DNA of 64,000 nt from Chondrosia reniformis (Eukaryota; Porifera; Demospongiae; Chondrillida; Chondrillidae): NCBI GenBank assembly GCA_947172415.1, contig OX359189.1, positions 1,200,501 through 1,264,500 of the forward strand, given 5' to 3'. Positions 16,639-40,100 of the stretch are shown here, one piece after another. How positions within the stretch are numbered: position 1 is the stretch's first letter; every line of letters begins with the position of its first letter. The notes under the pieces were generated by a model. The model saw only the letters and a program-made list of their open reading frames with translations, was not told the DNA's origin and did not search any database. The position numbers and the translations under genes were made by a program.

Positions 16639-16644
16639 GTAAGT

Positions 16645-16660
16645 TACTATTTAAGATAAC
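16645..16660. other. Duplication junction: SPAG17 intron 2 joined to CDK8 intron 5
   Basis: Left of the junction the sequence follows SPAG17 intron 2 (gtaagttactattta). Right of it the sequence follows CDK8 intron 5 (taagataacctttgcaccct, compare 3243 onward). The parents share only about 2 bp (ta) at the switch, so the join looks like end-joining rather than repeat-mediated recombination. The same junction recurs at about 29940. Confidence 0.9.
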
Positions 16661-16730: not shown

Positions 16731-17510
16731 CCAGGTGACCTCCCTACCCAGGTGACCTCCCCGCCCAGGTGACCTCCCTACCCAGGTGACCTCCCCACCC
16801 AGGTGACCTCCCCGCCCAGGTGACCTCCCTACCCAGGTGACCTCCCTACCCAGGTGACCTCCCTACCCAGGTGACCTCCCTACCCAGGTGACCTCCCCGC
16901 CCAGGTGACCTCCCCGCCCAGGTGACCTCCCCGCCCAGTTGACCTCCCTACCCAGGTGACCTCCCTACCCAGGTGACCTCCCCACCCAGGTGACCTCCCT
17001 ACCCAGGTGACCTCCCCACCCAGGTGACCTCCCCACCCAGGTGACCTCCCTACCCAGGTGACCTCCCCGCCCAGGTGACCTCCCTACCCAGGTGACCTCC
17101 CCACCCAGGTGACCTCCCTACCCAGGTGACCTCCCCACCCAGGTGACCTCCCCACCCAGGTGACCTCCCCACCCAGGTGACCTCCCCACCCAGGTGACCT
17201 CCCTACCCAGGTGACCTCCCTACCCAGGTGACCTCCCCACCCAGGTGACCTCCCCACCCAGGTGACCTCCCTACCCAGGTGACCTTCCCTACCCAGGTGA
17301 CCTCCCTACCCAGGTGACCTCCCTACCAGGTGACCTCCCTACCCAGGTGACCTCCCTACCCAGGTGACCTCCCTACCCAGGTGACCTCCCTACCCAGGTG
17401 ACCTCCCTACCCAGGTGACCCCCCTACCCAGGTGACCTCCCTACCCAGGTGACCTCCCCATCCAGGTGACCTCCCCTACCCAGGTGACCTCCCTACCCAG
17501 GTGACCTCCC
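16731..17510. repeat. 17-bp minisatellite in CDK8 intron 5 (block copy 2)
   Basis: The same ccaggtgacctccctac unit as copy 1, about 45 units, with more Cac variants than copy 1. It ends just before CDK8 exon 6 of the truncated copy. Confidence 0.97.
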
Positions 17511-17559
17511 TACCTTGTGTCACTTTATCCATTTCCTTTTTTCCATTTCATCACATTAG

Positions 17560-19364
17560 CTGATATGGGGTTTGCTCGTCTGTTTAATGCTCCTCTGAAG
17601 CCGTTGGCCGACCTGGATCCAGTGGTGGTCACCTTTTGGTACAGAGCACCGGAGCTGCTGTTAGGGGCCAGACACTACACTAAGGCCATTGGTAAGCTCT
17701 ATTGTCACATCTGTAAAGTGATAAATGTAAACCACAAGCTTTTCCTTGTAGATATTTGGGCAATTGGGTGTATATTTGCTGAACTGTTGACCTTTGAACC
17801 AATTTTCCACTGTCGGCAAGAGGATGTTGACACCAACAGTCCTTATCACTTTGATCAGCTGGACAGAATATTTACAGTTATGGGATTTCCAGCAGGTAAT
17901 TGAACATGGTTACCCAGGCAACATAATCTGGTTACCTAGGTAACGGCACAGAATCCTTATCCTAGCTTGATGTCCAGCTATTATTATCTTTTGTGTTTTT
18001 GCTTAATAATGAAACAGTTGTGGTTTGATTATCATGTTGATTATTCATGCATATCTTGAATGTCTGTGAATGGATGAGTTTCATTTTTCAAAGTGTATAA
18101 TTGCAATGTGATATGAGGTTAGTATTTCCTATATTTTTTCATTTTTTATATAAAGAAAAAGATTGGGAAGATATAAAGAAGATGCCAGATTATGAAAACC
18201 TAAAGTCTGATTTTAACAGTCGGAAGTGAGTCCATGTACAACAGCTCCTGAGATTCTGTGGTAGCCTCAACTTATATTGTTTGATAATATTATACATAAG
18301 AGATTCATACACTTGTTGTTTACAAGTTATTTTGTTTATTAGTTATAGTACCTGCAACTTACAGCGTTACATGGAGAAGCACAAGATTAGAGCTGAATCT
18401 AGCGCATTCCACTTGGTATGGTACCTGATGTTGTATAAACAGTTTTTGGAGTACAACCACCTTCTTGTTGTTTTAAACCAGAGATTGTTAAGGATTGAGT
18501 ATACAGTTCAATTTAATACTTGTTAATGCACTCCATAGACCTTTACTCTAAAGTAGATGTAGCATGTTAGAAAATGTGGGGTGTATTATTCGTGTGTGAT
18601 GCAACCAAAGAACAGTATTGCTCAATAAAGTCTCTCGTGCCAGTCCCCTTCACTACAGATGTGCTTGTGAGGCTAGCCCCACCCCCAACATGCACCTCGG
18701 TAGATCCACCTAGATTAGTACATGTCCATGACCACCATCCCTCTGTCCCTCTGTGTTCACAGCTGCAGAGGTTTCTCACAATGGACCCTACCAAGAGGAT
18801 CACCTCGGAACAAGCACTGGTGGATCCATACTTTTTGGAGGATCCAAAACCGACAGCAGATGTATTTGATGGCTTTACCATTCCCTACCCCAAGAGAGAG
18901 TGCATCAGTGAAAATGGTGACAAAGGAGATGAAAAGAACGATGTCAAAGTATGCTGACATTATACAATATTGCTTATCATCATAGCATTGTCACAGCTCA
19001 GTGCAATTACTCCCCTAGTTCAATATACTGTATATATTGTGTGTGAAATTGTATAGAGATTCAGGAACAAAGATTGTATTTCAGCAAATATGTTAAATTA
19101 TACTTTATCTGTTGTATGTCTGTGTCTCCATAGCAACCAGGAGCCCCTCTCAACAAAACTGCAGTTAGCCAGGAATCTGAGCCCTCAGCCAAGAGAAGTA
19201 GAATCACTACAACAGCTACAACTGACTATCATCAGTCCAGTAATGTTCAAGTCACAAGTGGTCCCACCCGAGGCTATCACCACGCCCCCACCACAACCTA
19301 TGGCTCCTCGCAACAGGGCCACCAGACCCATCACTATGGACACCAGAGACAGCCGGGATACTGA
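17560..19364 (+). pseudogene. Truncated CDK8 copy, exons 6-11 (block copy 2)
   Basis: Exons 17560-17691, 17752-17895, 18156-18225, 18349-18415, 18763-18948 and 19134-19364 have the same lengths, phases and splice sites as CDK8 exons 6-11, with no stop or frameshift. Exons 1-5 (ATP-binding lobe and catalytic HRD) are absent, so it cannot be an active kinase. The Met of the DMG motif is in frame and could start a C-lobe-plus-tail protein. I count five silent and one replacement change (Asp to Asn in the acidic linker) against the full gene, so it may be under constraint rather than a plain pseudogene. Confidence 0.85.
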
Positions 19365-19691
19365 GAGACACTCAGGGCCAACATCACTACGTGGAACATA
19401 ATTATTAATATTTTATATATAATATTATTATTGTATTTAAATTTCTGCAGTGAAGTGTTATCAGAGAGTATATAGGGGATGGACTTGTAGTTTCAGCATG
19501 CACAGGCATCTAATAAAGCATGTCCAACAAGTTTTTATCAATGTATGAATATTTTCCCTATCTCTCTCCATACTATATTTAATGTAATGTAGACACTGCA
19601 AGGCACTTTGTGTTCAGTACTTGTTTGGATGTACTACACTCTGTAGCTAGCCTATTGTGTTTCTATGGTAATACAATATGGCGACTGCATG

Positions 19692-20735: not shown

Positions 20736-23700
20736 ATGAACAGAGAATCAAGAGTCAGAGGTAATGTACGCATTGAAGTGTGTTATGATATTTTTGAAGA
20801 TACAGTATTTATAGTTGAGATTTCTCTCCCTTTCTATAGACTATCCAAACTTTGAATCTAAACTGATAGTGCATTTAAAAGATTTAGGTAACTGGAGATG
20901 GGTGTTGGCCCATCTTGGAATATCACTTATGAAATGTGATGCAGCACTCCGTGATAGCTTTGGTGATTCTAATAAAGCCTTTTTCAAATGTCTTCTCCAC
21001 TGGGTCCACTTGAATGTGAGGGATACTAAAGGTACATGGAGTGAGCTATTTGATGCTCTAAGAAAAGGAGGAGAAACAGGAGCAGCTGTAGACTTGGAAA
21101 AGGATATCTTTAGTTCTCTCTCACAAACTGGTTAGTTTTACAAGTATTCACTAGTCTTAGGGCTGATGTTTTTTAATTCCTCTCAATTTCTCTGCTTTCA
21201 CATTGTCTTATGATAATCACAAATGATGATCTGTATCTTGATGTGCTGTCACTGTATGCTGTCCTATTCTCTTTTTATATTTCAATTCCTGTTTTTGCTA
21301 AGTGATCTGTATAATACAATGTCTACTAAATGTAAAGTACTGTAAATAATAAATATACATATAGATCTTATATACTAAGATGGTTCTCCATAGGCCAGAC
21401 CACTTTTAACCACCATATTTATTTGAGAATGTAAAAAGGAGAAGTGGAAGTGATAATAGGTCGTCATTACCAGAATGTTCTTTACTTTATTAGGAGAACA
21501 TGAGTCATCAGAGTTATCCCAAACAGAACCACAAGCCAGTCAGACTGCAGACCAGACAGAACCACAAGCCAGTCAAACTGCAGATCAGACAGAACCACAA
21601 GTCAGTCGAACTGCAGATCAGACAGAACCACAAGCCAGTCGAACTGCAGACCAGACAGCAACCATCACAAGTCAGTCAAACAGTTGTATAACTTATAGAA
21701 ATGTTCTACTGATGATGCATGATAAATGAGTATTTACCTGTGAAAACCAGTAGCTATACCATTTCACACAAAGCCATGCAGTACAAAGTACAGTCACTAT
21801 AGTCAGTATATTGCTTATAAAGTGCTTATCATGGCAGCTCACCATTAAGCGTTTACTATGATTGCAGTTTACCATTTTGAAAGTGTATATAGATACATAT
21901 ACATACGTAGATATACAGCTTCACTGCATGTAAATGTACCTGCAGTTCATTGTAAAGTTATCATTTCACAGAGTGTATATGCTACAAAAAGTAGACTTTA
22001 CATAACTGTAATGAATTAAGGCTTCACATGCTTGTCCATATAGCAATGGAAAAGAGTCCACAAGAGATCATTGCATTCCTGGACCAACACTGGGAGAGCC
22101 ATATAAAGCACTGTAATGCAAAAGCAATGCGTTTTGATCTTGAACGTGAGCATGTCATATCTCAAGGACAGAGACAACAGTTTGACTCTACTTTAAGTGC
22201 AGCTGATGCAAATACCCTGTTCTACCAGTGCCTTCGCAATGACCCAGCTCCAGAAACACTTAAAGCAGCTGCTAAAGTACTAAAGAAAGCTCCATATACT
22301 ACAAACATGAACAAGAGGTTTGCAAAGGTTATTGAAGATTTCTTGTCTCTCAAAGTTACCTCATCAGGTGGGTATTCATGTGTAACTATGAGTGACATCC
22401 TTAAATTTAAACTTAGCTTTGCCTTACAGCCTGGTGGCATTTTTAGCTCCCAGAACAGCTTTTTTTAACTAACTGAAAGTTGTCTGAAACAGCCAATAAT
22501 GGCTACAAGTACGTACGTGGGTAGAACACCTTTCTCATTTTCTTCTTCTTTTCTTTATTTCACGCTAGCACACAAACTAGCCTATATTTGTAAATAAATA
22601 TTATTTGATATATTATCGTCAAACTTTGTAGAGGCTAGGGAATGGGCACCCTTAGGTTTGAGACATGGTCTCACAGTGCATGGGACGGAAGTAGCTAACA
22701 GTGACTTAAGTGCTCTGTCTGCAACTTCACAGATTGATGGATTGTCTTAAACAATTAAAAGTATAGTTGTTAAAGATGATCCAATTGAATTCATTAGACA
22801 TCTGTCCTTGGAACACAAAAAGTTACTTGCAACACTGTATCATTTAAGTATACTTGTCTAATGTTACTGTACTAATTAATCTGTAGATCTTCCAACTGCT
22901 TCGGAACCACAGAGCATTGAGACATCAACTAACCCAACACATACACAGCATGATTCTGATAAGCCTATTAACAGTCAAGAACACAGTGAAGAGGTATATC
23001 AAATACCGTATGCATACAAATTTTGTGGGACATATATTTCATGAATGCCCTGTAGCAGCCTTAATTGGCAGGCGGTCCTGCTAGTTGTTATAATTGTCAC
23101 ACAAAGTATTCAGGGTGTAGTTTATGTACATTTTTTATGAGCTTACGAAAAGGTTGACACAATGCTGCACAACCTCATATACGTACATCATATGAATGAC
23201 TTGCATAATAGTCAATGAAGTTAGTTTGTGGTCTGAAAAATTGAAACATTTTAAAGTTTAATTTATTAAACAACTCTGTATAATTTAAAAAATTGGGACT
23301 TTAAGATCTACGTACGTATATATGTAACTTATGAATATATACGTACATACGTACATTTAATTCTGGATTTACCCGACCCACTCATGACTCAATTGACATA
23401 AACTAGAGTCTCCCCTTTGCCACTCAAAAGGATGGTAGAGTCACAGTTGTTTTGTCCTTAAGACTCATTAGGATATGATGGAAATATGAAAATGAGATAC
23501 TCAACGTGTGTCTGAGTCAGTGACCACTAAATATTGAATAATATGCAGTTTTATGATCAGCTACATAATACGTAGATCTTAAAGTCTCCTATTTTTCCAA
23601 TGTGTAGTAACTACGTACTATATGATATGAAATGGGGTAGGCTGGTAATAATACTTTATCTCCATTTGCATGCTATTGATTGCAATGTACGTATGTATAA

Positions 23701-26700
23701 GTAGTTTCAGACTATAAGCCAACATCATATATAATGTACATTGTATACAGTGCACTCCGCCTAATCCGCCATCGCTTTATCCGCCAAACCGCACAATCCG
23801 CTGACCTTCTCCTGTACGAATTCATTTGTATTACAAAACTAGATAGATCCACCAATAACCTGTAAATCCGCCATCCGCCATAGTTTTTTGACATCAATTC
23901 CGCATAATATATTGTTTACGTACCACTTAATCCGCCATCAGCCCTTTTAACATTTCTTCAGTCGTTTACATAACGCTTTAGTCGTTTACATAACACCTCA
24001 GGGTTTGCTACAGTTGTCTACGGTTATGGCGTCAAAAAGTTTAAGGACTGATTTATCTACTGCGAAGAAGAAAGAAATCTGTGACTACAAGGATAAGAAT
24101 ACGAAGGCCACTCAAGACCAGATCACTGTCTGACTATTTTTGTACATAGTTATATAATCTTACACTTTTATGCATGTAGTATTTATACATTTTACACATT
24201 TTCAATGACAAAAGTTATGATAAACTTGGCTTCATATTGTATAATCCCCCATAAAATTGCCTAAACCAATTGTGGCGGATAAAGCGGAGTGCACTGTATA
24301 CTGTAATACACTATATGCACATTAGAAAACCATATCTCAAAAATTTGAATTTCTTAAGGCATGATAATTATAGCTAAACAAAATGAGTGACAACATTTTA
24401 ATGTACATACATATAAAACGTTATCATAATCTCTCTCTTGTCCTTAGGTCCCACCATGGTATAAAGAAGCGATAAGAGATAAACATGGCTTTGTTATTGT
24501 AAGAGTTAATCGAAGTGTGTTTACTGGCTCATCTCGTGTGGGTAAGACCTCATTAAAGTACAACTTGCTCCACAATAAGCCAAGGAAGGATAAGAAAAGT
24601 ACTACCTTACTTGAGGCACCAGAAGTAGCCATGATTTCTCGTGTGGGTAAGACCTCATTAAAGTACAACTTGCTCCACGATGAGCCAAGGAAGGATAAGA
24701 AAAGTACTGAGGCACCAGAAGTAGCCATGATTTCAGAGGCATATGTCCGAGGTTGGTCTGGTCTTTGGACAGAAGTTAAAGATGAATTTCTTGGAGAAAT
24801 GTTTTCAAATGCAGAAATCAAATCCCAAAAAAAGCTACCAACTGTGAAGCTCCCCTCAAATGAGCAACCTGTACCAGGTAGCAATTCTACAAGTGAAGAG
24901 GTTGTAGAGGAAGATGAAATTCTGTCAGATGACTCTTCACAAGAAGCAGCTGACTCATCAGATAATAACAGCGATCGCATGTTGCTATATGATGCACACA
25001 AATCATTTCTGGAGCGATACCACAGCAAATCTGAACAAGACGTTCAGCTGAAGGATGTCACATTCATCTATCTTCTAGACACAGGTGGGCAGCCATCCTT
25101 TCAGGAAGCGCTTCCAATGTTGCTGGATTTTCCCTGCAACTTTGTCCACACATTCAATGCTTCTTGCAAGCTCACAGATCCCTACATCAATACCTACTGC
25201 AGAGATGGCAAGACAGAGGAGAAACCTGAAGGGGAAAATACCCAAACCAGTTGGGAGCTCATGCAGCAATCTCTAATGTCAGCCTATACTATGTCACTGA
25301 AGCACAAACATTATCTGGAAAAGTTTGGTGGAAATGATCCCAAGCTGCGAATCTTCATCGTTGGTACACATCTAGGCAAGTTGAAGGATTCTCCTGATAA
25401 AGAGGAAGTGTTAATTTCTCATGATAATGTCCTTGAGCAAATCGAGTCCAAAGTATACCATGACTTTATAAAATTTCCAAAGGTCACCTACCAAGACCAC
25501 AAATCTTATGTGCTTTTAGATAGCCAATTTGAAGGTGAAAAAGATGAAATTGATCATAGCAAAAAGGCCTTGGCTGATCTTCGTCAGCGGCTTTCTGATG
25601 AGGAAGCGTGTATGGAATTGGCTGTACCAAAGTTGTGGTATTGTCTGCTACTCATTACTCGTAAAATCGAAAAGAAAATGTGGAACTATTCTGACCTGAA
25701 GTGGTTTTGTATTGAAAAGTCTTACATTGATAAGGATCATGCAGATGAGCGGTTTAAAGACATGCTTTCTCTTTTCCATTCTCTGGGATTTTATGTCTAC
25801 TTCCACATGCCAGATAAAATGAGCAGCGAATCCAATTTAGTTTGCACAGATGCCACTTTTCTATATCAGGAGATATCCAAAGTCCTTACTGTACAATATG
25901 CAGATAATCATCCAAGTCTTCGTCGTTTTAGGAAAACGGGTGAGATACCAGCTGTGAAAGCACCAGATCTATTTGATGCTCTTAGTGTTGACAAGAGCAT
26001 TCCTCCAGCATGGCTCCTCAGTGTACTCCATCATGTAGGGATAGCTGCCAAGACCTCTAAGGGTAGTAAAGACCACTATTTCTTGCCCTCTGTTCTCCCC
26101 AGTAGGAATGCTCTAGATTTGCTACCACAAAAAGGCACTGTAGATAATCTTAGTTTTACCATTTCCTGTGAAACTGAGTGTGCAAGTGACCATTTTTATG
26201 GCCTACCCACTGGTGTATTCCATCATCTGGTAGTAGATATGGCAAATAGGTCCAGCACCAAGGATGCAGAAAGTTTACACACCTGGGCTAGGATCCCTGA
26301 TCAAGCATATAGTAACATTATAAAATTTAATATTGCTAATATTTACTCAGACGTTTACTTGGTTAGGAAGGTAGACCACATTGAGCTAGTATTGCTCTGT
26401 AAGAGTTGCCACTCACTTGATGTTCATGAGCTCAATATGCTCTGCACTGCAATTAAATGCGAAATGAATAAGCGAATTGAGTATGTTTTGGAAAGCCTCT
26501 TTGGGAAGGATCTCAGCCAAGTTACCCTCGAGACGGGAGTGCTATGTACTGGTAAATCTTGCCAGTCTGAGAAGAGTGATACTGAGCATTTGTTACTTCT
26601 GACTAAATCGATTACTGGAACATGTACCAAGAATAATGAACAATTAGAGCTCCAACCAAGACAGTCTATTTGGATGGAGAAGGTAATGATAAAATATCTA

Positions 26701-28322
26701 CTACCAGAAATCACTGTTAGCACACAGTATGTTCTATTTTCACTTTATACTGTAAAAAGAACCTTTTTCCTGCTAATTAATATGATTTGCTTTAGTCTGG
26801 CCATACTTATACTTTATTAATTTACAGAATGTCACATTTTAAATAGGAATGCTGCAATAGCTGTATAACTCTTACTATTGGCTCGACAGTGAATTCACTG
26901 CTGTATATGTAGACATTGTTCTGATTGTGCAACCATTTAAGCAAATATTCATCACAATTCATTTAATCCTTACAATATTATTCCTATATATGCATATATC
27001 TCCTAGCTAATGATAGCATTGATAGCATCATACTTTATTCCAAATGGTTAACATATGTATATATACATTTACGTACATGTATTTATTTTTGTAGGAAGAA
27101 GTAGTTGAGGGAAGACTTGAAAAGAATGGCAACTATTGGTTCTTAAATGATTCAGAATCAGGTAAGTTAACATTGCACTCCTTATACAGTACCTTTCGAC
27201 ATTTCATTTCATAAGAGTGATTGACATGACATTCAAGGTAGTTCTTTTGTCAGTTATTAAGTTATATAAGCTGTTATTACATGTATCATTTTTAATTCAA
27301 TAACTTAGATAGAGGTGCTGTAACTACGGTTGATGGAGACTCAGACAGCAGTGACTCAGATAGAGATTCAAGGTAACATATAATCAACAAGCAGAGAAGA
27401 CACTGGCCATCCCTACTTCTAATTACAGTTTTAAATGTTTAAATTAGATTGCTAAGTTGCTAGTTCCAATTTTAGGTAGTTTGAAAGTAAAATCATCATC
27501 TTTAAATCCTTTCTATAGTTGCCTTCTCGATGAGACAAAACATATGGCTGTGCTCAAGAGGTACATAGTTGACAAGGTCCCTCATAAGTGGAAGGACATA
27601 GCTACTGAACTTGAATTTGACTACATCAAAGTGGAGGCTATAGAGGCTGATTCTGCAACGAATAGTGATCGACTGTTGACTGTCTTTGGTTTGTGGTTAA
27701 GGAAAGCAAATGGAACTGGAAAGAGGGAGAGAACACTTCAAACACTCTGCGAGGCACTAGACAATTGTGACTGCAAACCTGAATCAGAGGTCCTATCACA
27801 ACATTTTGGGATTAGTAAGTCTATGCTAGAAAAAATCTTTCTTTTAAGGATAAACTCTAAATGTTAATTTTGATGTAACTCTCAATGTTACCTACGTATA
27901 TTGATGTATCCTGTACTATATATTATAGGGCCTCTCTGGCTCACAACATTTTTTAATTCAATATACAGTGGCATAGGAAGTGGTCCGGTTGGTCTGGGTC
28001 TTTTAACTTCCTCTATAGGTCGGCACTAGACAGAAACTTCAGCTGAGGTCAAACCAAGTATTTTTTCCCTATAATTGTGACAGTTTTCTGTTCTCCTCAT
28101 CTGCATATTACAGTACATATATAGACCAGACCACTTTCAAATTGCTTCCTATGCTCCTGATATTGAATAAACATTCCTATTTGGAGATTAACAAACTGCT
28201 TCATATGTCTCCAAAGACTTTATATGCATGTGTGAAAGCTTTGTTAAATACTTGTCTTATAATTTTGCAATTTTGTAATTATGGCAGCTCCTGATCAAGT
28301 GACCAATTGGCGACTGGAATAA
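20736..28322 (+). CDS. Death-CARD-ROC-COR-Death protein, copy 2
   Basis: Exons 20736-20760, 20840-21130 (Death 1), 21494-21670 (11-aa repeats like EPQASQTADQT), 22044-22367 (CARD-like, e.g. EHVISQGQRQQFDST), 22887-22993 (linker), 24448-26682 (ROC-COR), 27095-27161, 27309-27372 (Asp/Ser-rich), 27519-27814 (Death 2), 28288-28322. All junctions keep phase, giving about 1206 aa. The ROC part carries the P-loop motif SRVGKTS twice, 35 residues apart, then DTGGQP and VGTHLG; the COR-like region follows. Death folds recruit partners by homotypic contact and ROC-COR modules are GTP-regulated dimerisers, so a scaffold or receptor role in innate-type signalling is likely but inferred. The penultimate region lost the basic tail of copies 1 and 3: a small change in the last exon gives TPDQVTNWRLE then stop. 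It has the fullest domain set of the three. Confidence 0.85.
21510..21660 (+). repeat. 33-bp coding repeat (11-aa units) in exon 3 of copy 2
   Basis: About four in-frame units of QTEPQASQTAD. The matching exon in copy 3 (33481-33624) is exactly 33 bp shorter and has three units. Copy 1 lacks this exon. Confidence 0.9.
23293..23600 (-). mobile_element. Decayed ribozyme-element relative (block copy 2)
   Basis: Same element as at 9659-9966. On the minus strand about 23419-23490 keeps a better stem II (GTCTTAAGGAC) and the stem I strand ccactcaaa, but the core has CTAATGA and AAAAC, so cleavage activity is not expected. Confidence 0.7.
23748..24296. mobile_element. Tigger/pogo-like MITE, family A (block copy 2)
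   Basis: Orthologous to the MITE at 10108-10660, with the same terminal repeats and TA flanks and a few point differences. It lies in the intron before the ROC exon. Confidence 0.9.
24532..24732 (+). repeat. Tandem duplication of the P-loop segment in the ROC exon
   Basis: The segment coding SRVGKTSLKYNLLH to EAPEVAMI (24532-24636) is repeated directly at 24637-24732, 105 bp apart. The second unit has a 9-bp deletion (TLL missing) and Asn-Lys changed to Asp-Glu. Copies 1 and 3 have one unit. The frame is kept, so the protein has two Walker A motifs. Confidence 0.95.
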
Positions 28323-29533
28323 AAAGGCCAGTTCTCCAGGTTTGTTTGCATAAAGTGTATGTAGTTCATGCAGTATATCTTTTGAAAGGATCATCTTTTG
28401 ACTTTTAGAGTGTCTAAATTTTAGTTGTCGGACGTTTCAACCCCAAGTGTCTTCTTCAGTGACTAATGTTGGTAGGCATTGGTTCCTGCCATTTTCGATT
28501 GCCTCATCAATGACATCATTCATTACATCATTTCCTGGGGAAGGATAAGAAAGGGAAGTACTCATAAAAAAAGCCTAGATTCCAACCAGATCTTCAAGTG
28601 TCTCTGCCTATAAAGTAGAGACCTACAGACCAACATCAGTCACTGAAGAAGACCCTTGGGGTCGAAACGTCTGATAATCAAAAGACACATCAAATTGTGT
28701 CATTAGACGCTCTAAAAGTCGAAAGATGGTCCTTTCAAAAGATAAGTTAGACGCAGTTAGAAGAAATCCTTATTCTATTTCGTACAGTATATTTATAAAC
28801 AAATATTTTGTATAACACAATGTCTGCAGTAAAAAACAAAAATAAATGAAAAGCTGACAATAGATGTTTTCTTAATTGTTTTTTTTTTTAATTTGATACA
28901 GTTGGCTCAAGGACAAGATATGCAATCATATTTAGCTACACTAAAATAATTGAACTAATATCCACTATCCACTCTTTCAAGTTTTTATATTTGCACACTA
29001 TGTAGTACTTGGTGTTTATTTGTACGTATATCTATTTACTATTGATTAAAAATCTTTGGATACGTATTTGCATAATCAGTGTATACCAAAGCTAATGTAC
29101 ATGTGATTGAATTGCAGTTAAGTAATGTCAAGGAGTGTGGTATAGAATACTTTCTAATTGAGGATGAACACTTGAGGTCTCAGGAACAAGCAAAGGTGGA
29201 TGCTAATACTTGGTGTCAGCATTCACAGATATCTATAAAGCATATCCAACGAATTTTAGAAATTTGATGTTTGGGCCTTAGGCCCTATCTACGTAGATCT
29301 CTTACCATACATCTCATATACTAGTAGTTAATGTTATAAAACTGGTTTGGATATACTGAAGTATGCAGTTGTATGTATACAGTTGTATAACTGTAGACAT
29401 TCATCGGTTTTGACTATTATGTATCGTTGTATAGTGCTACATGGTCTAAATAGACCTAGTGTGCACTCAAATATTAATAATAATAATAATAATATACGTT
29501 TCTATGGTAATACAATATGGCGACTGATACATA
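28323..29533. other. Region between copy 2 death-fold gene and second truncated SPAG17 copy
   Basis: It holds the foldback element (28376-28744), the remains of the old last exon (gtcagcagtaaaaaac-like sequence near 28824, degraded), and the intergenic block also seen at 15571-16241. An (aat)n microsatellite lies at 29472-29493. No intact coding exon is seen. Confidence 0.6.
28376..28744. mobile_element. Foldback element without nested MITE (block copy 2)
   Basis: Same inverted ends as at 14621-15360 (tatcttttgaaaggatcatc and its complement). It retains the empty target site for the family B MITE. Confidence 0.8.
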
Positions 29534-29926
29534 ATGTCCAAGGGGAAAAAGTCTGCAGGAAAATCGCAGCCAAGCGCTGCAGATGGAAACTGGGAGAAGC
29601 TTTTAGCCGATGATACTCTGTACAAGGTTCGTGTAAGCATATGTAACAGATCATAACAAGGTACCAAACCGAGCGAAATTGAACAAGATTGAGTATACTC
29701 GCCTAGTCGTGTTGTAAGCTTGCAGTTCAACTAGTGCTGAGCTGATAGATTCACTTCTGTTACACTATTTCTGGTTATTTCCTAGGATGATTGGAAACCG
29801 TACATTGTATTTATCGAGGGAGAAGGACGACCCTCAGAAGAACACTTGGATGCGCTGATGGCCGTAGTGGAGAAAGGATACAGGCGCAAATTTGGCTGTA
29901 TCGTAAAGAGTCAACTGCTAATCTCT
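29534..29926 (+). pseudogene. Truncated SPAG17 copy (exons 1-2), end of block copy 2
   Basis: Exons 29534-29626 and 29786-29926 match SPAG17 exons 1-2 with intact frame. The sequence then crosses the same SPAG17/CDK8 intron junction at about 29940 as block copy 1. Joining to the next CDK8 exon (exon 8 at 30494) would be out of frame. Confidence 0.9.
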
Positions 29927-30014
29927 GTAAGCTACTATTTAAGATAACCTTTGTACCCTGCTGCCATAGTGTTATGGAATCGCAATAGTGGCCTCATTGA
30001 GGTAGTTAGTGACA

Positions 30015-30174
30015 CATCCAGGTGACCTCCCTACCCAGGTGACCTCCCCCATCCAGGTGACCTCCCCCATCCAGGTGACCTCCCCACCCAGGTGACCTCC
30101 CCACCCAGGTGACCTCCCTACCCAGGTGACCTCCCCATCCAGGTGACCTCCCCACCCAGGTGACCTCCCCACCC
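30015..30174. repeat. Shortened 17-bp minisatellite (block copy 3)
   Basis: Only about nine units of the ccaggtgacctcccyac repeat remain, against 35-45 in the other copies. CDK8 exons 6-7 that should follow are missing. Confidence 0.95.
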
Positions 30175-30493
30175 AGAATACAGAATCTCAGAATACATAG
30201 TAACATCGTAGTTCCCTAAGAAAGTCTTAAGTACCCCATGCATCAATCCAATGAAGTAAAGTATTCTTAGAATACATAGTTTTTTGACATCAATTCCACA
30301 TAATATATTGTTTACATACACTTAGTATTGAGATCCTCTTTGAGCTGAAGCAGCTTGGGATCAAAGCAAATGCATTAACAATGGTCAGTTTGCAGTTTGG
30401 TTTTTGTAATGAGTTTCATTTTTCAAAGTGTGTAATTACAATGTGATATGAGGGTAGTATTTCCTATATTTTTTTTTTCATTTCAATATAAAG
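30175..30493. other. Complex rearrangement junction in block copy 3
   Basis: Between the minisatellite and CDK8 exon 8 lie, in order: about 100 bp of unplaced sequence (agaatacagaatctcagaat...), a 45-bp piece of the family A MITE (about 30277-30321), a SPAG17 exon 6 fragment (30324-30383) with its donor, then CDK8 intron 7 sequence from about 30405. CDK8 exons 6 and 7 are deleted. Such a patchwork suggests template switching during repair. Confidence 0.8.
30324..30383 (+). pseudogene. Fragment of SPAG17 exon 6
   Basis: Matches 42059-42118 of SPAG17 (agtattgagatcctct... tgggatcaaagca...) including the start of the next intron (gtcagtttgc), with changes such as GAT to AAT and AAG to ATG. It is isolated from other SPAG17 sequence. 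Confidence 0.85.
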
Positions 30494-31711
30494 AAAAAGA
30501 TTGGGAAGATATAAAGAAGATGCCAGATTATGAAAACCTCAAGTCTGATTTTAACAGTCGGAAGTGAGTGCATGTACAACAGCTCCTGAGATTCTGTGGT
30601 AGCATCAACTTTATATTGTTTGATAATATTATACATAAGAGATTCATACACTTGTTGTTTACAAGTTATTTTGTTTTAATTATTAGTTATAGTACCTGCA
30701 ACTTACAACGTTACATGGAGAAGCACAAGATTAGAGCCGAATCTAGCGCATTCCACTTGGTATGGTACTTGATGTTGTATAAACAGTTTTTGGAGTACAA
30801 CCACCTTCTTGTTGTTTTAAACCTGAGATAGTTAAGGATTGAATATACAGTTCAATTTAATACCTGCTTAATGCACTCCATAGACCTTTACTCTAAAGTA
30901 GATGTAGCATGTTAGAAAATGTGGGGTGTATTATTCGTGTGTGATGCAACCAAAGAACAGTATTGCACAATAAAGTCTCTCGTGCCAGTCCCCTTCACTA
31001 CAGATGTTGCCCTGTGAGGCTAGCCCCACCCCCAGCATGTACCTCTGTAGATCCACCTAAATTAGTACATGTCCATGACCACCATCCCTCTGTGTTCACA
31101 GCTGCAGAGGTTTCTCACAATGGACCCTACCAAGAGGATCACCTCGGAACAAGCACTGGTGGACCCATACTTTTTGGAGGATCCAAAACCGACAGCAGAT
31201 GTATTTGATGGCTTTACCATCCCCTACCCCAAGAGGGAGTGCATCAGTGAAGATAGTGACAAAGGAGATGAAAAGAACGATGTCAAAGTATGCTGACATT
31301 ATACAATATTGCTTATCATCATAGCATTGTCACAGCTCAGTGCAATTTACTCCCCTAGTTCAATATGATATACTGTATATGTATTGTGTGTGAAATTGTA
31401 TAGAGATTCAGGAACAAAGATTGTATTTCAGCAAATATGTTAAATTATACCTTATCAGTTGTATGTCTGTGTCTCCATAGCAACCAGGAGCCCCTCTCAA
31501 TAAAACTGCAGTTAGTCAGGAATCTGAGCCCTCAGCCAAGAGAAGTAGAATCACTACAACAGCTACAACTGACTATCATCAGTCCAGTAATGTTCAAGTC
31601 ACAAGTGGTCCCACCCGAGGCTATCACCACGCCCCCACCACAACCTATGGCTCCTCACAACAGGGCCACCAGACCCATCACTATGGACACCAGAGACAGC
31701 CGGGATACTGA
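30494..31711 (+). pseudogene. Truncated CDK8 copy, exons 8-11 (block copy 3)
   Basis: Exons 30494-30563, 30693-30759, 31102-31287 and 31481-31711 correspond to CDK8 exons 8-11, same lengths and phases, no stops. Against the full gene I count nine silent and one replacement change (Gly to Ser in the acidic linker). No kinase motifs remain apart from the C-terminal part of the lobe, and no upstream start exon is evident. Confidence 0.85.
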
Positions 31712-32677
31712 GAGACACTCAGGGCCAACATCACTACGTGGAACATTAGTAGATTATCCGTATTTTAAATTCTGAAGTAATATCAGAGATCTACTAATGG
31801 TAGTATGGTATATTACCAATTAGGTTGACATGGTAGCTTATTTAATGTACACATATATACAAGACATGAACAGAGATGTCAGTCTATACAACATACTGTA
31901 TACCATTTTGGATAGTGCATGGCCCTAGCATGCATCAATCTGCCCAGATGCACTTTAAAAGCTAACCAATACACCAGGTGACCTTCAAACACACATGCTA
32001 AAATACTGGAGATCGGGTATTTATACGTATGTATACCAATATATTGGCTAATGATTGGTGGACTGGAGTGCAGGCAGTCTCTTGTGATTGTGTGATGACA
32101 GAGTGATGACAGAGTGATGACAATGGACAGTCTAACCTATATAGTCTTGTATACTGCACAATAATCACATCATCTGATTGATCATATATATGTCTGTAAA
32201 TTACAGATTGTTCATCATCTCTTGTATATAATAATTCAACAGTCCCCTAACGATCGGTTATATAGTAAGGACTTTTGCTTTGAATCAAATTTTAATGATA
32301 TACCATATTAATCACTAGCACTCATACATTGGTGGCATATAATCTTGGATGTATATTTACATTGAAACAGCCTGATCTTAAAATAATATTGTGCTATTAT
32401 TAGACTTGTGATGTAATAAGGAATTTTTAAGACATTACCTTATATAGACGCTGAACATGGCTGTCGGGGCGAAAAGAGGGCGTTCTAGTCTCTCGATCTA
32501 GCACGTGGACTATAGCAAGTGAAGCCGAACTAGTTAATTATAAACAGAAAGGGTGATTGAAGCATTATTCGTTTGGAATCTTAGACGTGATACCCATTGA
32601 AATCCTTATTCTCTTCCGTAAATCTAACATTTCTAAGTTGTAGTACAGTTGTTTGGTTCAATTTTGATAAAGATAGC

Positions 32678-35600
32678 ATGAACAGAGAATCAAGAGTCAG
32701 AGGTAATGTACGCATTGAAGTGTGTTATGATATTTTTGAAGATACAGTATTTATAGTTGAGATTTCTCTCCCTTTCTATAGACTATCCAAACTTTGAATC
32801 TAAACTGATAGTGCATTTAAAAGATTTAGGTAACTGGAGATGGGTGTTGGTCCATCTTGGAATATCACTTAGGAAATGTGATGCAGCACTCCGTGATAGC
32901 TTTGGTGATTCTAATAAAGCCTTTTTCAAATGTCTTCTCCACTGGGTTGATTTGAATGTGAAGGATACTAAAGGTACATGGAGTGAGCTATTTGATGCTC
33001 TAAGAAAAGGAGAAGAAGCAGGAGCAGCTGTAGACTTGGAATACAATATCTTTAGTTCTCTCTCACAAACTGGTTAGTTTTACAAGTATTCACTAGTTTT
33101 AGGGCTGATATTTTTTAATTCCTCTCAATTTCTCTGCTTTCACATTGTCCTATGATAATCGCAAATAATGATCTGTGCTGTCACTGTATACTGTCCTATT
33201 CTCCCTGTCTGCCAAAGATTAATGTCTCCACTGTAAATTTTTATATTGGAATTCCTGTTTTTGCTAAGTGATCTGTATAATACAATGTCTACTAAATGTA
33301 AAGTACTGTAAATAATAAATAAATAGAGCTAGTTCCAACATATACGTATAGATCTTATATACGAAGATGGTTCTCCATAGGCCAGACAACTTTTAACCAC
33401 CATATTTATTTGAGAATGTAAAAAGGAGAAGTGCAAGTGATAATAGGTCGTCATTACCAGAATGTTCTTTACTTTATTAGGAGAACATGAGTCATCAGAG
33501 TTATCCCAAACAGAACCACAAGTCAGTCAAACTGCAGACCAGACAGAACCACAAGCCAGTCAAACTGCAGATCAGACAGAACCACAAGCCAGTCAAACTG
33601 CAGACCAGACAGCAACCATCACAAGTCAGTCAAACAGTTGTATAACTTATAGAAATGTTCTACTGCATGCATGGTAAATGAATATTTACCTGTGAAAACC
33701 AGTAGCTATACCATTTCACACAAAGCCAGTACAAAGTACAGTCACTATACGTAGTCAGTATATTGCATATAAAGTGCTTATCATGGCAGCTCACCATTAA
33801 GCGTTTACTATGATTGCAGTTTACCATTTTGAAAGTGTATATACGTAAATACATATACATATGTAGATATACAGCTTCACTGCATGTAAATGTACCTGCA
33901 GTTCATTGTAAAGTTATCATTCCACAGAATGTATATGCTACAATAAGTAGACTTTACATAACTGTAATGAATTAAGGCTTCACATGCTTGTCCATATAGC
34001 AATGAAAAGGAGACCACAAGAGATCATTGCATTCCTGGACCAATGCTTGCAGAGTCATATAAAGTACTGTGATGCGAAAGCAATACGTTTTGATCTTGAA
34101 CTTGAGCATGTCATATCTAAAGGACAGAGACAACAGTTGGACTCTACTTTAAGTGTAGCTGATGCAAATACCCTGTTCTACCAGTTCCTTTACAATGATC
34201 CATCTCCAGTGACACTTGCAGCAGCTGCTAAAGTACTAAAGAAAGCTCCTAATACTACAAACATGAATAAGGCATTTGCAAAGGTTATTGAAGATTTCTT
34301 GCATCTCGAAGTTACCTCACCAGGTGGGTATTCATGTGTAACTATGAGTGATATCCTTAATTTTAAACTTAGCTTTGCCTTACAGCCTGGTGGCATTTTC
34401 AGCTCCCAGAACAGCTTTTTTAACTAACTGAAAGTTGTCTGAAACAGCCTATAATGGCTACAAGTACATAGGTAGAACACCTTTCTCATTTTCTTCTTCT
34501 TTTCTTTTATTTCACGCTAGCACACAAACTAGCCTATATATGTCAATTAATATTATTTGATGTACGTATTATTGTCAAAAATTTGTAGAGGCTAGGGAAT
34601 AGGCAGCCTTAGGTTTGAGATGTGGTCTCACAGTGCATGGGATGTAAGTAGCTAACAGTGACTCAAGTGCTCTGTCTGCAACTTCACAGATCGATGGATT
34701 GTCTTAAACAATTTAAAGTATAATTGACAAAGATGATCCAATTGAATTCATTAGACATCTGTCCTTGGAACACAAAATAGTTACTTGCAACACTGTATCA
34801 TTTAGGTATACTTGTCTAATGTTACTGTACTAATTAATCTGTAGATCTTCCAACTGCTGAGGAACCACAGAGCATTGAGACATCAACTAACCCAACACAT
34901 ACACAGCATGATTCTGATAAGCCTATTAACAGCCAAGAACACAGTGAAGAGGTATATCAAATACTGTATGCATACAAATTTTGTGGGACATATATTTCAT
35001 GAATCCCCTGTAGCAGTCTTAATTGGCAGGCGGTCCTGCTAGTTGTTATAATTGTCACACAAAGTATTCAGGGTGTAGTTTATGTACATTTTTTATGAGC
35101 TTACTAAAAGGTTGACACAATGCTGCACAACCTCATATACGTCATACAAATGACTTGCATAATAGTCAATGAAGTTAGTTTATGGTCTGAAAAATTGAAA
35201 CATTTTAAAGTTTAATTTATTAAACAACTCTATATAATTTAAAAAATTGGGACTTTAAGATCTACGTACGTATATATAACTTATGAATATATACGTACAT
35301 ACGTACATTTAATTCTGGATTTACCCGACCCACTCATGACTCAATTGACATAAACTAGAGTCTCCCCTTTGCCACTCAAAAGGATGGTAGAGCCACAGTT
35401 GTTTTGTTTTTAAGACTCATTAGGATATGATGGAAATATGAAAACGAGATACCCAACGTGTGTCTGAGTCAGTGACCACTAAATATTGAATAATATGCAG
35501 TTTTATGATCAGCTACATAATATGTAGATCTTAAAGTCTCCTATTTTTCCAATAACTACATACTATATGATATGAAATGGGGTAGACTGGTAATAATACT

Positions 35601-38600
35601 TTATCTCCATTTGCATGCTATTGATTGCAATGTACGTACGTATGTAGTTTCAGACTATAAGCCAACATCATATATAATGTACATTGTATACAGTGCACTC
35701 TGCCTAATCCGCCATCGCTTTATCTGCCAAACCGCACAATCCGCTGACCTTCTCCTGCACGAATTCATTTGTATTACAAAACTATATAGATACACCAATA
35801 ACCCGTAAATCCGCCATCCGCCATAGTTTTTTGACATCAATTCTGCATAATATATTGTTTACGTACCACTTAATCTGCCATCAGCCCTTTTAACATTTCT
35901 TCAGTCGTTTACATAACGCTTTAGTCGTTTACATAACACCTCAGCGTTTGCTACAGTTGTCTACCGTTATGGCGTCAAAAAGTTTAAGGACTGATTTATC
36001 TATTGCGAAGAAGAAAGAAATCTGTGACTACAAGGATAAGAATACGAAGGCCACTCAAGACCAGATCACTGTCTGACTATTTTTGTACATAGTTATATAA
36101 TCTTACACTTTTATGCATGTAGTATTTATACATTTTACACATTTTCAATGACAAAAGTCGTGATAAACTTGGCTTCATATTGTATAATCCCCCATAAAAT
36201 TGCCTAAACCAATTACGGCAGATAAAGCGGAGTGCACTGTATACTGTAATACACTATATGCACATTAGAAAACCATATCTCAAAAATTTGAATTTCTTAA
36301 GGCATGATAATTATAGCTAAACAAAATGAGTGACAACATTTTAATGTACATACATATAAAACGTTATCATTACCTCTCTTTTGTCCTTAGGTCCCACCAT
36401 GGTATAAAGAAGCCATAGATAAACATGGCTTTGTTATTGTAAGAGTTAATCGAAGTGTGTTCACTGGCTCATCTCGTGTGGGTAAGACCTCATTAAAGTA
36501 CAACTTGCTCCACAATAAGCCAAGGCCAAGGAAGGATAAGAAAAGTACTGACTTACTTGAGGCACCAGAAATAGCCATGATTTCAGAGGCATATGTCCCA
36601 GATGGGTCTGTTCTTTGGGAAGAAGCTAAAGATGAATTTCTTGGAAAAATGTTTTCACATGCAGAAATCAAATCCAAAAAAAAGCTACCAACTGTGAAGC
36701 TCCCCTCAAATGAGCAACCTGTACCAGCTAGCAATTCTACAAGTGAAGAGGTTGTAGATGAAGATGAAAGTCTGTCAGATGACTCTTCACAAGAAGCAGC
36801 CGACTCATCAGATGATGATAGCAATCTCATGTTGCTATATGATGCACACAAATCATTTCTGGAGCGATACCACAGCAAATCTGAACATGACGTTCAGCTG
36901 AAGGATGTCACATTCATCTATCTTCTAGACACAGGTGGGCAGCCATCCTTTCAGGAAGCGCTTCCAATGTTGCTGGATTTTCCCTGCAACTTTGTTCACA
37001 CATTCAATGCTTCTCGCAAGCTCACAGATACCATCATCGATACCTACTGCAGAGATGGCAAGACAGAGGAGAAATCTGAAGGGGAAAATAGCCAAACCAG
37101 TTGGGAGCTCATGCAGCAATCTCTAATGTCAGCCTATACTATGTCACTGAAGCACAAACATTATCTGAAAAAGTTTGGTAGAAATGATCCCAAGCTGCGA
37201 ATCTTCATCGTTGGTACACATCTAGGCAAGTTAAAGGGTTCTCCTGATAAAGAGGAAGTGTTAATTTCTCATGATAAGGTCCTTAGGCAAATCGAGTCCA
37301 AAGTATACCATATGTTCAGAAAATTTCCAAAGGTCACCTACCAAGACCACAGAGCTTATGTGCTTTTAGATAGCCAATTTGAAGGTGAAGAAGATGAAAT
37401 TGATCATAGCAAAAAGGCCTTGGCTGATCTTCGTCAGCAGCTTTCTAATAAGGAAGCATGCATGGAATTGGCTGTACCAAAGTTGTGGTATTGTCTGCTA
37501 CTCATTACTCGTAAAATCAAAAAGAAAATGTGGCACTATTCTGACCTGAAGAGATTTTGTATCAAAAAGTCTTACATTTATGAGGATCTTGCAGATGAGC
37601 AGTTTAAAGCGATCCTTTCTCTTTTCCATTCTCTGGGATTTTATGTCTACTTCCACAAGCCAGATAAAATGAGCAGCGAATTCAATTTAGTTTGCACAGA
37701 TGCCACTTTTCTATATCAGGAGATTTCCAAATTCCTTACTGTACAATATGCAGATAATGATCCAATTCTTGATTTATTTAGGAAAACGGGTGACATATCA
37801 GCTGTGAAAGCACAAGATCTATTTGATGCTCTTAGTGTTGACCCGAGCATTCCGCCGGCATGGCTCCTCAGTGTACTCCATCATGTAGGGATAGCTGCCA
37901 AGATCTCTCAGGGTAGTAATGACCACTATTTCTTGCCCTCTGTTCTCCCCAGTAGGAATGCTCTAGATTTGCTACCACAAAGAGGCACTGTAGATAATCT
38001 TAGTTTTACCATTTCCTGCAAAACCGATTTTCTTGATGTCCAATTTTATGGCCTACCCACTGGTGTATTCCATCGTCTGGTGGTAGATATGGCGAATAGG
38101 TCCAGCACCACGGATGCAGAAAGTTTACACACCTGGGATAGTTACTCTGACCAATCGAATAGTAACATTATAAAATTTCATATTGATGATATTTACTCAG
38201 ACGTTTACTTGGTTAGGAAGGTAGACCACATTGAGCTAGTATTATTGGTCTGTGAGTATTACCCCTCCCTTGATGCTCATAAGCTTAAAGAGCTCTGCAC
38301 TGCAATTAAATGCGAAATGAACAGGCGAATTAAGTACGTTTTGGAAAGCCTCTTTGGGAAGGATCTCAGCCAAGTTACCCTCAAGACGGGAGTGCCATGT
38401 ACTTGTACATCCTGTCAGAAGAGTGCTACTGAGCATTTGTTACTTCTGATTGACCAGATTGCTGGCAAATGTACCAAGACTAAGGAACGAAAAGAACTCC
38501 AACCAAGGCAGTCTATTTGGATGGGGAAGGTAATGATAAAGTATCTACTACCAGAAATCACTGTTAGCACACAGTATGTTCTATTTTCACTTTATACTGT

Positions 38601-40100
38601 GAAAAGAACCTTTTCCCCGCTAATTGATATGATTTGCTTTAGTCTGGCCACACTTATACTTTATTAATTTACAGAATGTCACATTTTAAATAGGAATGCT
38701 GCAGTAGCTGTATAACTCTTACTATTGGCTCGACAGTGAATTCACTGCTGTATATGTAGACATTGTTCTGATTGTGCAACCATTTAAGCAAATATTCATC
38801 ACAATTCATTTAATCCTTATAATATTATTCCTATATATGCATATATCTCCTAGCTAATTATAGCATTGATAGCATACGTACTTCATTCCAAATAGTTAAC
38901 ATCTGTTTATATATTTATTTTTGTAGGAAGTAGGAGTTGAGGGAAGACTTGAAAAGAATGACAACTATTGGTTCTTAAATGATTCAGAATCAGGTAAGTT
39001 AACATTGCACTCCTTATATTAAGAGTGGTTGATATGGCATTCAAGGTAAATCTTTTGTCAGTTATTAAGTTATAGGCATAGGAAGTGGTCCGGTTGGTCT
39101 GGGTTTAGCCAGACCACTTTTTGCTACTCAACTAAGTCTTTTAACTTCCTCTAGGTCAGCACTAGGCAGAAACTTCAGCTGAGGTCAAACCAAGTATTTG
39201 TTCCCTATAGTTGTGACAGTTTTCTGTTCTCCTCATCTGCCTATTACAGTGCATAGACCAGACCACTTTCAAATTGCTTCCTATGTTCCTGATATTGAAT
39301 AAATATACCTATTTGGAGATTAACAAACTGCTTCATATGTCTCCAAAGACTTTATATGCATGTGTGAAAGCTTTGTTAAATATTTGTCTTATAATTTTGC
39401 AATTTTGTAATTATAGCAACTCCTGATCAAAGTCAAGCGACCAAGAGGAATAGAAAAAGGCCAGTTCTCCAGGTTTGTTTGTATAAAGTGTACGTAGTTC
39501 ATACAGTATATCTTTTGAAAGGATCATCTTTGACTTTTAGAGCATCTAAATCTTAGACGTTTCAACCCCGATGGTCTTCTTCAGTGACTAAGGTCTGCAA
39601 GTGTCTACTTTTATAGGCCTTGGTTCCCACCATTTTCGAATATCTCATCAATGACATCATCCATTACATTTCCAGGGGAAGGAGAAGAAAGGGAAGTACT
39701 CATAAAAAGTGTTTTCAGCCTAGATTCTAACCGGATCTTCAAGTGTCTCTGCCTATAAAGTAGACACCTACAGACCAACATCAGTCACTGAAGAAGACCC
39801 TTGGGGTCGAAACATCTGATAATCAAAAGAGACAACAAAACTGTGTCTTTAGACGCTCTAAAAGTTGAAAGATGATCCTTTCAAAAGATAAGTTCGATGC
39901 AGTTACGTAGAAGGAATCCTTACTCTATTTCATACAGTATGTTTATAAACAAATATTTTGTATAACACAATAGTATGTATATATTTATGTATATAAAGGC
40001 ACATATGTATTTTGATCTACAGTATGAACCAAGTGCTAGTCAATCAAGCAATGTCAGCAGTAAAAAAACAAGAAAAAATGAAAAACATTTTAATAGCTGA
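32678..40100 (+). CDS. Death-CARD-ROC-COR protein, copy 3 (intact, lacks C-terminal Death)
   Basis: Exons 32678-32702, 32782-33072 (Death 1), 33481-33624 (three 11-aa repeats), 34000-34323 (CARD-like), 34845-34951, 36391-38529 (ROC-COR), 38927-38993, 39417-39472, 40023-40100. They join in frame to about 1076 aa. P-loop GSSRVGKTS is at about residues 323-331 and DTGGQP near 477. After ROC-COR the sequence around 39075 jumps across the two exons that encode the acidic linker and Death 2 in copy 2; because the flanking introns are both phase 1, the frame survives and ends in a basic Ser/Lys-rich tail (KKTRKNEKHFNS). The gene sits directly before the real SPAG17. The role as an innate-type signalling scaffold is inferred from domains only. 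Confidence 0.85.
35247..35550 (-). mobile_element. Decayed ribozyme-element relative (block copy 3)
   Basis: Orthologous to 9659-9966 and 23293-23600; the hammerhead-like stretch is about 35370-35443 on the minus strand, with a mutated core. Confidence 0.7.
35691..36239. mobile_element. Tigger/pogo-like MITE, family A (block copy 3)
   Basis: Orthologous to the MITEs at 10108 and 23748; TA-flanked CAGTGCACTC ends. A piece of the same family was reused in the rearrangement junction at 30277-30321. Confidence 0.9.
39509..39890. mobile_element. Foldback element without nested MITE (block copy 3)
   Basis: Orthologous to 14621-15360 and 28376-28744, in the last intron of the copy 3 gene; it also shows the empty site for the family B MITE. 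Confidence 0.8.

Follow-up and report, generated by a model that had tools for sequence, protein, structure and literature searches.

Uncoupled exon and intron divergence at a tandem death-fold/Roc-COR locus of the sponge Chondrosia reniformis and diversifying selection on its dispersed CARD exon family

Introduction

When the copies of a tandemly duplicated gene differ more in some of their exons than in the introns between them, the question arises whether selection, exchange between the copies, or both have caused the difference. This question is raised by a locus of the demosponge Chondrosia reniformis (genome of 117.38 Mb in 15 contigs), for which a window of 64,000 bases was analyzed (contig OX359189.1, here C1, positions 1200501–1264500 of the forward strand; coordinates given below are counted from the first base of the window, and all exons lie on its forward strand). 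The window contains three tandem units of approximately 11–13.6 kb, each starting with the 3' portion of a CDK8-like kinase gene, which is located upstream of a gene predicted to join Death and CARD adaptor domains to a Roc-COR GTPase. The exons of the latter gene run from a start exon through Death 1, a cassette, a linker, and Roc-COR to a tail. In copies 2 and 3 the cassette comprises a repeat exon (REP) and a CARD exon; copy 1 has a Death 2 exon instead. A preliminary description, made from the DNA letters of this region, had proposed diversifying selection on both the CARD and the Death exons.

Divergence of exons and noncoding sequence

The CARD exon of copy 2 (22044–22367), a phase 1-1 exon of 107 open codons that is homologous to the structurally modelled CARD of copy 3 (34000–34323), differs from the latter at 35 of 324 positions, as compared with 91 of 3,219 positions in noncoding sequence (Fisher's exact test, p = 6e-10) and 33 of 869 in the two adjacent introns (p = 1.5e-5). 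The noncoding baseline comprised introns and upstream sequence, with the Roc-tail intron (3.5–6.7% divergence), the CDK8 region, and the intergenic part (1.2–3.4%) set aside, and the exon tests were repeated after addition of the Roc-tail intron to this baseline. In the introns adjoining the CARD exon, identity between these copies amounts to 97.5 and 95% (9/355 differences before the exon, 2.5%, and 24/514 after it, 4.7%), and divergence shifts near the exon ends: 3 of the 100 bases before the exon differ, followed by 7 of its first 54 bases, and 7 of its last 54 bases are followed by 3 of the first 99 intron bases. That the CARD exon diverges faster than its introns, as had been judged by eye, is thus confirmed. 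Of the approximately 23 replacement and 5 silent codons estimated at that time, the 23 amino acid changes were recovered; the Nei-Gojobori method yielded 28 replacement and 7 silent steps.

The Roc-COR exons (10811–12949, 24448–26682, and 36391–38529; 2.1–2.2 kb), whose divergence the preliminary description did not mention, are likewise more diverged than noncoding sequence. By pair they differ at 122, 160, and 157 of 2,130 positions, compared with 2.8–3.3% in the noncoding baseline (p = 1e-4 to 3e-14; the 157 differences and p = 3e-14 pertain to copies 2 and 3), and they remained above noncoding sequence with the Roc-tail intron in the baseline (p = 6e-4 to 2e-14). Death 1 of copies 2 and 3 (20840–21130 and 32782–33072) showed 9 replacement and 2 silent changes, where 8 to 1 had been reported, and its divergence (11/288) is not above the noncoding 91/3,219 (p = 0.36); compared with Death 1 of copy 1 (7200–7496), the two exons do exceed noncoding divergence (23/291, p = 5e-4, and 26/291, p = 4e-5). 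For the Death 2 exons of copy 1 (7997–8292) and copy 2 (27519–27814), the reported absence of silent changes proved wrong, since 17 replacement and 3 silent steps were counted, and the excess of the exon (20/296) over its flanks (17/474) is borderline (p = 0.056). At this locus, exon distances are uncoupled from intron distances.

Site models of the CARD exon family

The proposed diversifying selection is well supported for the CARD at the level of a genome-wide family of paralogous exons, and not by the pairwise counts on which it had originally been based. Approximately 29 close copies of the CARD exon are dispersed in the genome. Of these, 27 were analyzed, corresponding to 25 distinct sequences of 107 codons after removal of duplicates (L012/L013); L046, which fell below the length filter, and a partial copy at C11:740977 were left out. 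Site models were calculated with our own implementation of the GY94/F3x4 codon model, with branch lengths fixed from model M0 apart from their scale. The ratio of replacement to silent rates (dN/dS, or omega) under M0 was 1.33, and twice the log-likelihood difference (2ΔlnL) from omega = 1 was 6.0, which is an upper bound because branch lengths were only rescaled. Models with a positively selected class were strongly preferred (M1a versus M2a, 2ΔlnL = 85.8, p = 2e-19; M8a versus M8, 84.1), with 27% of the codons at an omega of 3.65 and 32% at 0.18; one subset of the codons is diversifying and another is constrained.

Without copies 2 and 3 of the window the M1a/M2a gain was 66.1, and division of the exon into three segments with separate trees resulted in gains of 13.2, 21.8, and 24.4, all of them positive (sum 59.4 on 6 degrees of freedom). 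Simulations under M1a reached a maximum of 7.2 in 20 non-recombining replicates and of 32.8 in 32 replicates in which tips were completely shuffled among four segments. Furthermore, the other exons alone pointed to 29 of the 107 sites, and these received 12 of the 23 CARD replacements between copies 2 and 3, more than expected (p = 0.0035); 26 of the 27 exons lack a stop codon, the single stop being located at the last codon. Sites with a posterior above 0.95 were codons 4, 6, 13, 16, 22, 26, 34, 50, 52, 57, 64, 91, and 107. On the structural model, four of them map to helix 1, three to helix 4, two to helix 2, one to helix 6, none to helices 3 and 5, and three outside the helices. Helices 1 and 4 make up one of the two sides of a type I contact between death folds.

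Site models of 13 Death 1 sequences (16 less L039–L041, with 42–54% identity) gave a gain of 21.6. Because a recombinant null equaled or exceeded this value in 1 of 32 replicates, selection on Death 1 is not established, and Death 1 was rejected as a positively selected domain; the pairwise homoplasy index (PHI) moreover detected recombination in it (p = 0.006). Death 2 has too few copies for a family site test.

Within the window, the pairwise dN/dS of the Death, CARD, and Roc-COR exons was approximately 1.0–1.9 according to Nei-Gojobori (NG86) and 1.2–2.2 by maximum likelihood (ML), including 1.12 (NG86) and 1.47 (ML) for the CARD of copies 2 and 3 and 1.2–1.3 (ML) for Roc-COR; the short REP and linker exons had ratios of 0.5–0.6 or no silent change. 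As this check on the paired exons, by both methods, found no pair significantly above 1, pairwise counts were rejected as proof of selection. Nor is a divergence higher in exons than in introns a mark of codon selection by itself, as had been assumed, since at this locus silent sites of the CARD exon and of part of Roc-COR are raised too.

Silent sites and possible exchange between copies

Between copies 2 and 3, 7 of 70 silent CARD sites differ, which exceeds both the 2.8% of noncoding sequence (p = 0.004) and the adjacent introns (p = 0.02), and silent divergence is about three times the noncoding value in both the CARD exon and the C-terminal Roc-COR half. At four-fold silent sites, the N-terminal half of Roc-COR is noncoding-like (1.3–2.7%), whereas the C-terminal half reaches 8.7–9.3% in all three pairs (26/291 versus 10/460 with the three dependent pairs pooled, p = 4e-5; copies 2 and 3 alone, p = 0.04; C-terminal 9/97 versus the noncoding 2.8%, p = 0.002). 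Replacement sites in the N-terminal half are above noncoding divergence in copies 2–3 and not significantly so in copies 1–2 and 1–3. Along Roc-COR, replacement and silent counts covary (Spearman 0.58 for copies 1–2, 0.88 for 1–3, and 0.86 for 2–3). The CDK8-like exons, which served as coding control, differ between copies 1 and 2 at 1 of 527 replacement and 4 of 163 silent sites, and between copies 2 and 3, which have two of these exons in common, at 2 of 314 and 6 of 97. A process acting on codons alone would leave silent sites at their background level; the raised silent sites of the CARD exon and the C-terminal Roc-COR half hint at older or exchanged exon sequence.

The copy 2 CARD exon is equally close to exons on contigs C7 (90%) and C2 (89%) and to copy 3 (89%), and in no third is it nearer to the copy 3 exon than to the unlinked ones. 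At several loci the match to copy 2 begins at the acceptor of the CARD exon. Two unlinked loci, L027 on C3 and L047 on C6, differ at 41 of 324 exon positions (35 replacement, 6 silent) versus 4 of 339 in the alignable flanks, which comprise 89 bases before and 250 bases after the exon and beyond which the alignment is lost. In a screen of pairs with a flank divergence of up to 10%, which share sequences and thus are not independent, the CARD exon was more diverged than its flanks in 13 of 38 pairs (p < 0.05) and less diverged in 6, all of these among loci L011–L014. For Death 1, the exon was more diverged in 10, less diverged in 5, and not different in 10 of 25 pairs. A GENECONV-like run test (6/300 pairs, with 0/200 permutations reaching the observed run) was not used, as a slowly changing stretch confounds it.

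When the three Roc-COR copies were compared with the public Roc-COR protein P0002, the 42 two-against-two sites were clustered by pattern (p = 0.007). P0002 and the CARD open reading frames (ORFs) P0103 and P0108 are each located on a 618,827-base public contig, presumably the same one. P0103 is identical to the copy 3 CARD at 106 of 107 residues, whereas P0108 differs from copies 2 and 3 at 17 and 21 of 105 CARD residues, respectively, and its reading frame continues into an intron translation common to both copies. These three entries, seen as proteins only, likely belong to a second haplotype and represent an allele of the locus or an additional copy in it. The 102 public Roc-COR proteins listed include copies 2 and 3 but no exact copy 1 (public contig of 10,369,955 bases, compared with 10,409,357 for C1); therefore, assemblies or haplotypes may differ in the number of gene copies.

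Evaluation of the possible explanations

We consider it moderately probable that diversifying selection on the CARD has been combined with an exchange of sequence among copies, by which exons and introns have become uncoupled, in a lineage-expanded death-fold/Roc-COR gene that most likely acts as an immune or self/non-self switch. Under this explanation, gene conversion among copies and alleles would keep the introns alike, import exon variants, or both, and selection would favor copies with differing domain surfaces. The likely target would be the partner-binding surface of a CARD–CARD assembly, so that each paralogue would join solely its own partners or evade pathogen proteins that block it. 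The uncoupling itself could stem from intron-homogenizing conversion, imported exon sequence, selection alone, or a mixture of these, and exchange between copies probably contributes. The domains it contains and published work on related expansions make it most likely that the gene functions inside the cell as a switch in immunity or self/non-self recognition.

Several results weigh against selection combined with exchange. In the window no pairwise omega significantly exceeds 1 (likelihood-ratio statistic against omega = 1 of at most 2.08 over eight pairs). PHI detected no recombination within the CARD exon (p = 0.68), no donor tract of a conversion was identified (6/108 differences being the closest match for any third of the copy 2 or copy 3 CARD), and the exon tree places the CARDs of copies 2 and 3 as sisters (support 90/82). 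In the CARD screen, 19 of 38 pairs showed no significant difference between exon and flanks, and exon-only homogenization among L011–L014 was rejected as a case of exon-bounded conversion, the adjacent flanks being near-identical too in the two pairs rechecked (L011 with L013 and L012 with L011). Finally, the silent excess is not significant when measured against the CDK8-like exons of copies 2 and 3, neither for the CARD (7/70 versus 6/97, p = 0.39) nor for the C-terminal Roc-COR half (9/97 versus 6/97, p = 0.59), and the silent sites of these control exons are themselves somewhat above noncoding sequence (p = 0.06). For lack of a significant excess over the control exons, the silent sites suggest exchange but fall short of proving it.

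The comparison with CDK8-like copies 2 and 3, the sister position of the two exons, and the lack of both a donor and recombination within the exon would, together with the site models of the CARD family, fit diversifying selection acting alone on the CARD and parts of Roc-COR, with exon silent sites mutating faster than noncoding sequence and no exchange. We regard this as rather unlikely, because four-fold silent sites are unequal between the halves of one and the same Roc-COR exon, silent sites of the CDK8-like copies 1 and 2 (4/163) are at the noncoding level, the Roc-COR patterns with P0002 occur in blocks, and copy 3 is no nearer to the copy 2 exon than unlinked exons are. Alternatively, the copies may be old and their introns homogenized by local conversion, with selection only blocking conversion in a few exons and codons no longer diversifying. 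Such a divergence peak has a precedent in opsin exon 5 (PMC3924837) and agrees with the joint elevation of silent and replacement sites in the CARD and the C-terminal Roc-COR half and with their covariation along Roc-COR. However, the positively selected class of 27% of the CARD codons spans unlinked loci and persists without the window copies, and in the N-terminal Roc-COR half of copies 2 and 3 silent divergence equals noncoding divergence while replacement divergence exceeds it; as the sole cause, such a peak is unlikely. Ectopic replacement alone, in which CARD exons were copied from diverged paralogues and an omega of approximately 1 reflects mixed old variants instead of selection, would explain why in no third the copy 2 exon is closer to copy 3 than to unlinked exons and why several loci match it from the exon acceptor onward. 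We hold it to be very unlikely, as no donor tract was identified and selection would still be needed to make the variants, given that 26 of 27 exons are free of stops and that constrained and positive classes are both required.

Relaxed constraint or decay, with extra copies drifting and replacements accumulating neutrally, would be in line with a whole-exon Roc-COR omega near 1, the broken frame of the tail Death 2 in copy 1, and the lack of a full-length in-frame exon upstream of its middle Death 2. It is already contradicted by replacement rates above the noncoding level in CARD and Roc-COR, which are unlike neutral drift, and the exons remain open and 32% of the CARD codons belong to the constrained class, so that decay appears extremely improbable. 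The same small probability is assigned to exon-targeted hypermutation, a mutational and not a selective cause: similar silent and replacement rates, both above those of introns in the CARD and the C-terminal Roc-COR half, are as it would predict, but the CDK8-like exons of the same units are almost without replacements and in copies 1 and 2 have silent sites near the noncoding level, silent sites in the N-terminal Roc-COR half are not raised, and the site classes are sharply unequal in omega. A more far-reaching idea, about which we are doubtful, is that the CARD exons are exchangeable hypervariable phase 1-1 cassettes, spreading or converting among alleles and among loci of many chromosomes and providing each individual with a specific set of self-matching signaling domains. 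If true, this would amount to an allorecognition or pathogen-evasion code in an adaptor domain and not in a receptor.

Domain identity

Structure comparison identified the product of the CARD exon as a six-helix death fold nearest to CARDs; sequence-based searches found no Pfam CARD match (no family at all for copy 2, and unrelated weak matches only for copy 3). The structure alignments comprised 33 of 35 CARD matches (P0106 and P0137 omitted) plus two window exons, and 52 of 102 Roc-COR matches plus one window exon. Death 2 passes the Pfam PF00531 cut-off of 22.6 bits (34.4 and 31.3 bits), whereas Death 1 stays below it (15.2 bits in copy 2, no match in copy 1). By its fold, which matches LRRK1, CtRoco, and LRRK2 (E = 3e-14 to 3e-11), and by its relatives, the large exon is predicted to encode a Roc GTPase followed by COR, as in Roco proteins. 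Among the 53 members of the Roc-COR alignment, Pfam Roc was found in 29 and COR-A in 16; the window's own Roc-COR exons that were tested (copies 1 and 3) had no Pfam match. No Pfam match to NACHT or NB-ARC was obtained in the exons scanned, and the GTPase is Roc-like. The Roc-COR expansion in the genome amounts to 63 matching scored candidates (4 with one stop) out of 212 first-look candidates.

Organization of the locus

Exon coordinates and phases had been assigned correctly, as judged from open frames and splice sites. Copy 1 starts with a coding exon at 7097–7121 (ATG, GT donor, and a phase compatible with the Death 1 exon), and its Death 1 exon has an open frame and splice sites. The Death 2 exon at 7997–8292 (Pfam Death, 2.5e-8) takes the place of REP and CARD in the other copies, and the region around it (7678–8565) matches the tail regions at 13439–14320 and 27206–28073. 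The Death 2 exon is followed by an open linker exon (9287–9393) that aligns with copies 2 and 3, a Roc-COR exon with 713 open codons whose relatives match Pfam Roc and COR-A, and a tail exon with splice sites (13317–13395). A small acidic exon before the middle Death 2 (7781–7849) lacks a full-length in-frame acceptor, the frame being kept only by shorter alternative acceptors; therefore, copy 1 may skip Death 2. Within the stretch 8741–9193 of the same copy, a Type I hammerhead ribozyme (9012–9056, forward strand, Rfam 37.1 bits) sits in an inverted repeat whose arms are 98 and 87% complementary, and this stretch probably is a small mobile element.

In copy 2, the Death 1 exon (open frame, splice sites) is followed by a REP exon with TEPQASQTADQ repeats (21494–21682; 33-bp tandem repeat), the CARD exon, and a linker alignable to the other copies (22887–22993). 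The Roc-COR exon of this copy contains an internal duplication at 24448–24700 that repeats a P-loop-like stretch (SRVGKTSLKYNLLH), and a tail exon (27095–27161) lies downstream of it. Copy 3 has its REP exon at 33481–33636, the linker at 34845–34951, and the tail exon at 38927–38993, and the fold of its Roc-COR exon matches LRRK1/LRRK2/CtRoco. At the C-terminal end, Death 2 is intact in copy 2 (Pfam Death, 2.3e-7), absent in copy 3, and frame-broken in copy 1 (13766–14061), where no single open frame spans the exon and one frame accounts for matches to 80 of 98 query residues.

Copies 2 and 3 carry the 3' CDK8-like pieces at 17520–19400 and 30409–31750, with 0–2 replacement differences per exon and pair; that these truncated pieces are nearly unchanged suggests selection on them or recent copying. 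A piece at the unit ends recurs at approximately 16201–16653, 29493–29930, and 40590–41038. The last one looks as if it leads into a SPAG17-like gene, to which it is linked by its place only, and an ORF farther to the right matches SPAG17. A 17-bp minisatellite (GTGACCTCCCTACCCAG) at 3290–3895, 16731–17514, and 30018–30176 is situated at or close to the unit junctions, and the triplication may have been mediated by it.

Comparison with known systems

In immune switches, rapid change usually occurs in the sensing part. Here, it lies in the CARD, the partner-recruiting part, and the animal is an early-branching one. Should the positive sites make up a CARD–CARD contact, the approximately 25 diverged CARDs would be a natural set for testing the separation of death-fold assemblies, and a concrete candidate family for studies of self/non-self recognition in sponges. 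None of the titles listed in the literature search, which did not extend to most subscription papers, concerned positive selection in CARD or Roc-COR families of sponges.

Like Apaf-1/CED-4 and the NLRs (nucleotide-binding, leucine-rich repeat receptors), the gene would couple Death and CARD adaptors to a nucleotide switch, which here is a Roc-COR GTPase; unlike in those proteins, neither leucine-rich repeats (LRR) nor WD repeats were detected in the exons that were read. The likeness to the Roco proteins LRRK1/2 and CtRoco consists in the fold of the large exon. Death and CARD exons are present instead of kinase or LRR exons, of which none was seen, and the family is greatly expanded; a link of Roco to DAPK is contained in Pfam's description of Roc. 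In the sponge Amphimedon, TRADD-N proteins have undergone a lineage-specific expansion, and their diversity was inferred from column entropy (PMC8195603). They share with the present family the large sponge-specific expansion, the N-terminal Death-like domains, and an inferred diversification, but differ in the domain expanded, TRADD-N, and in the use of column entropy, where codon models were applied to the CARD here. The red/green opsins, duplicates with a divergence peak under gene conversion (PMC3924837), resemble this locus in having diverged exons between near-identical flanking introns. The sponge locus differs from them in that its dispersed paralogues additionally show site-specific positive selection.

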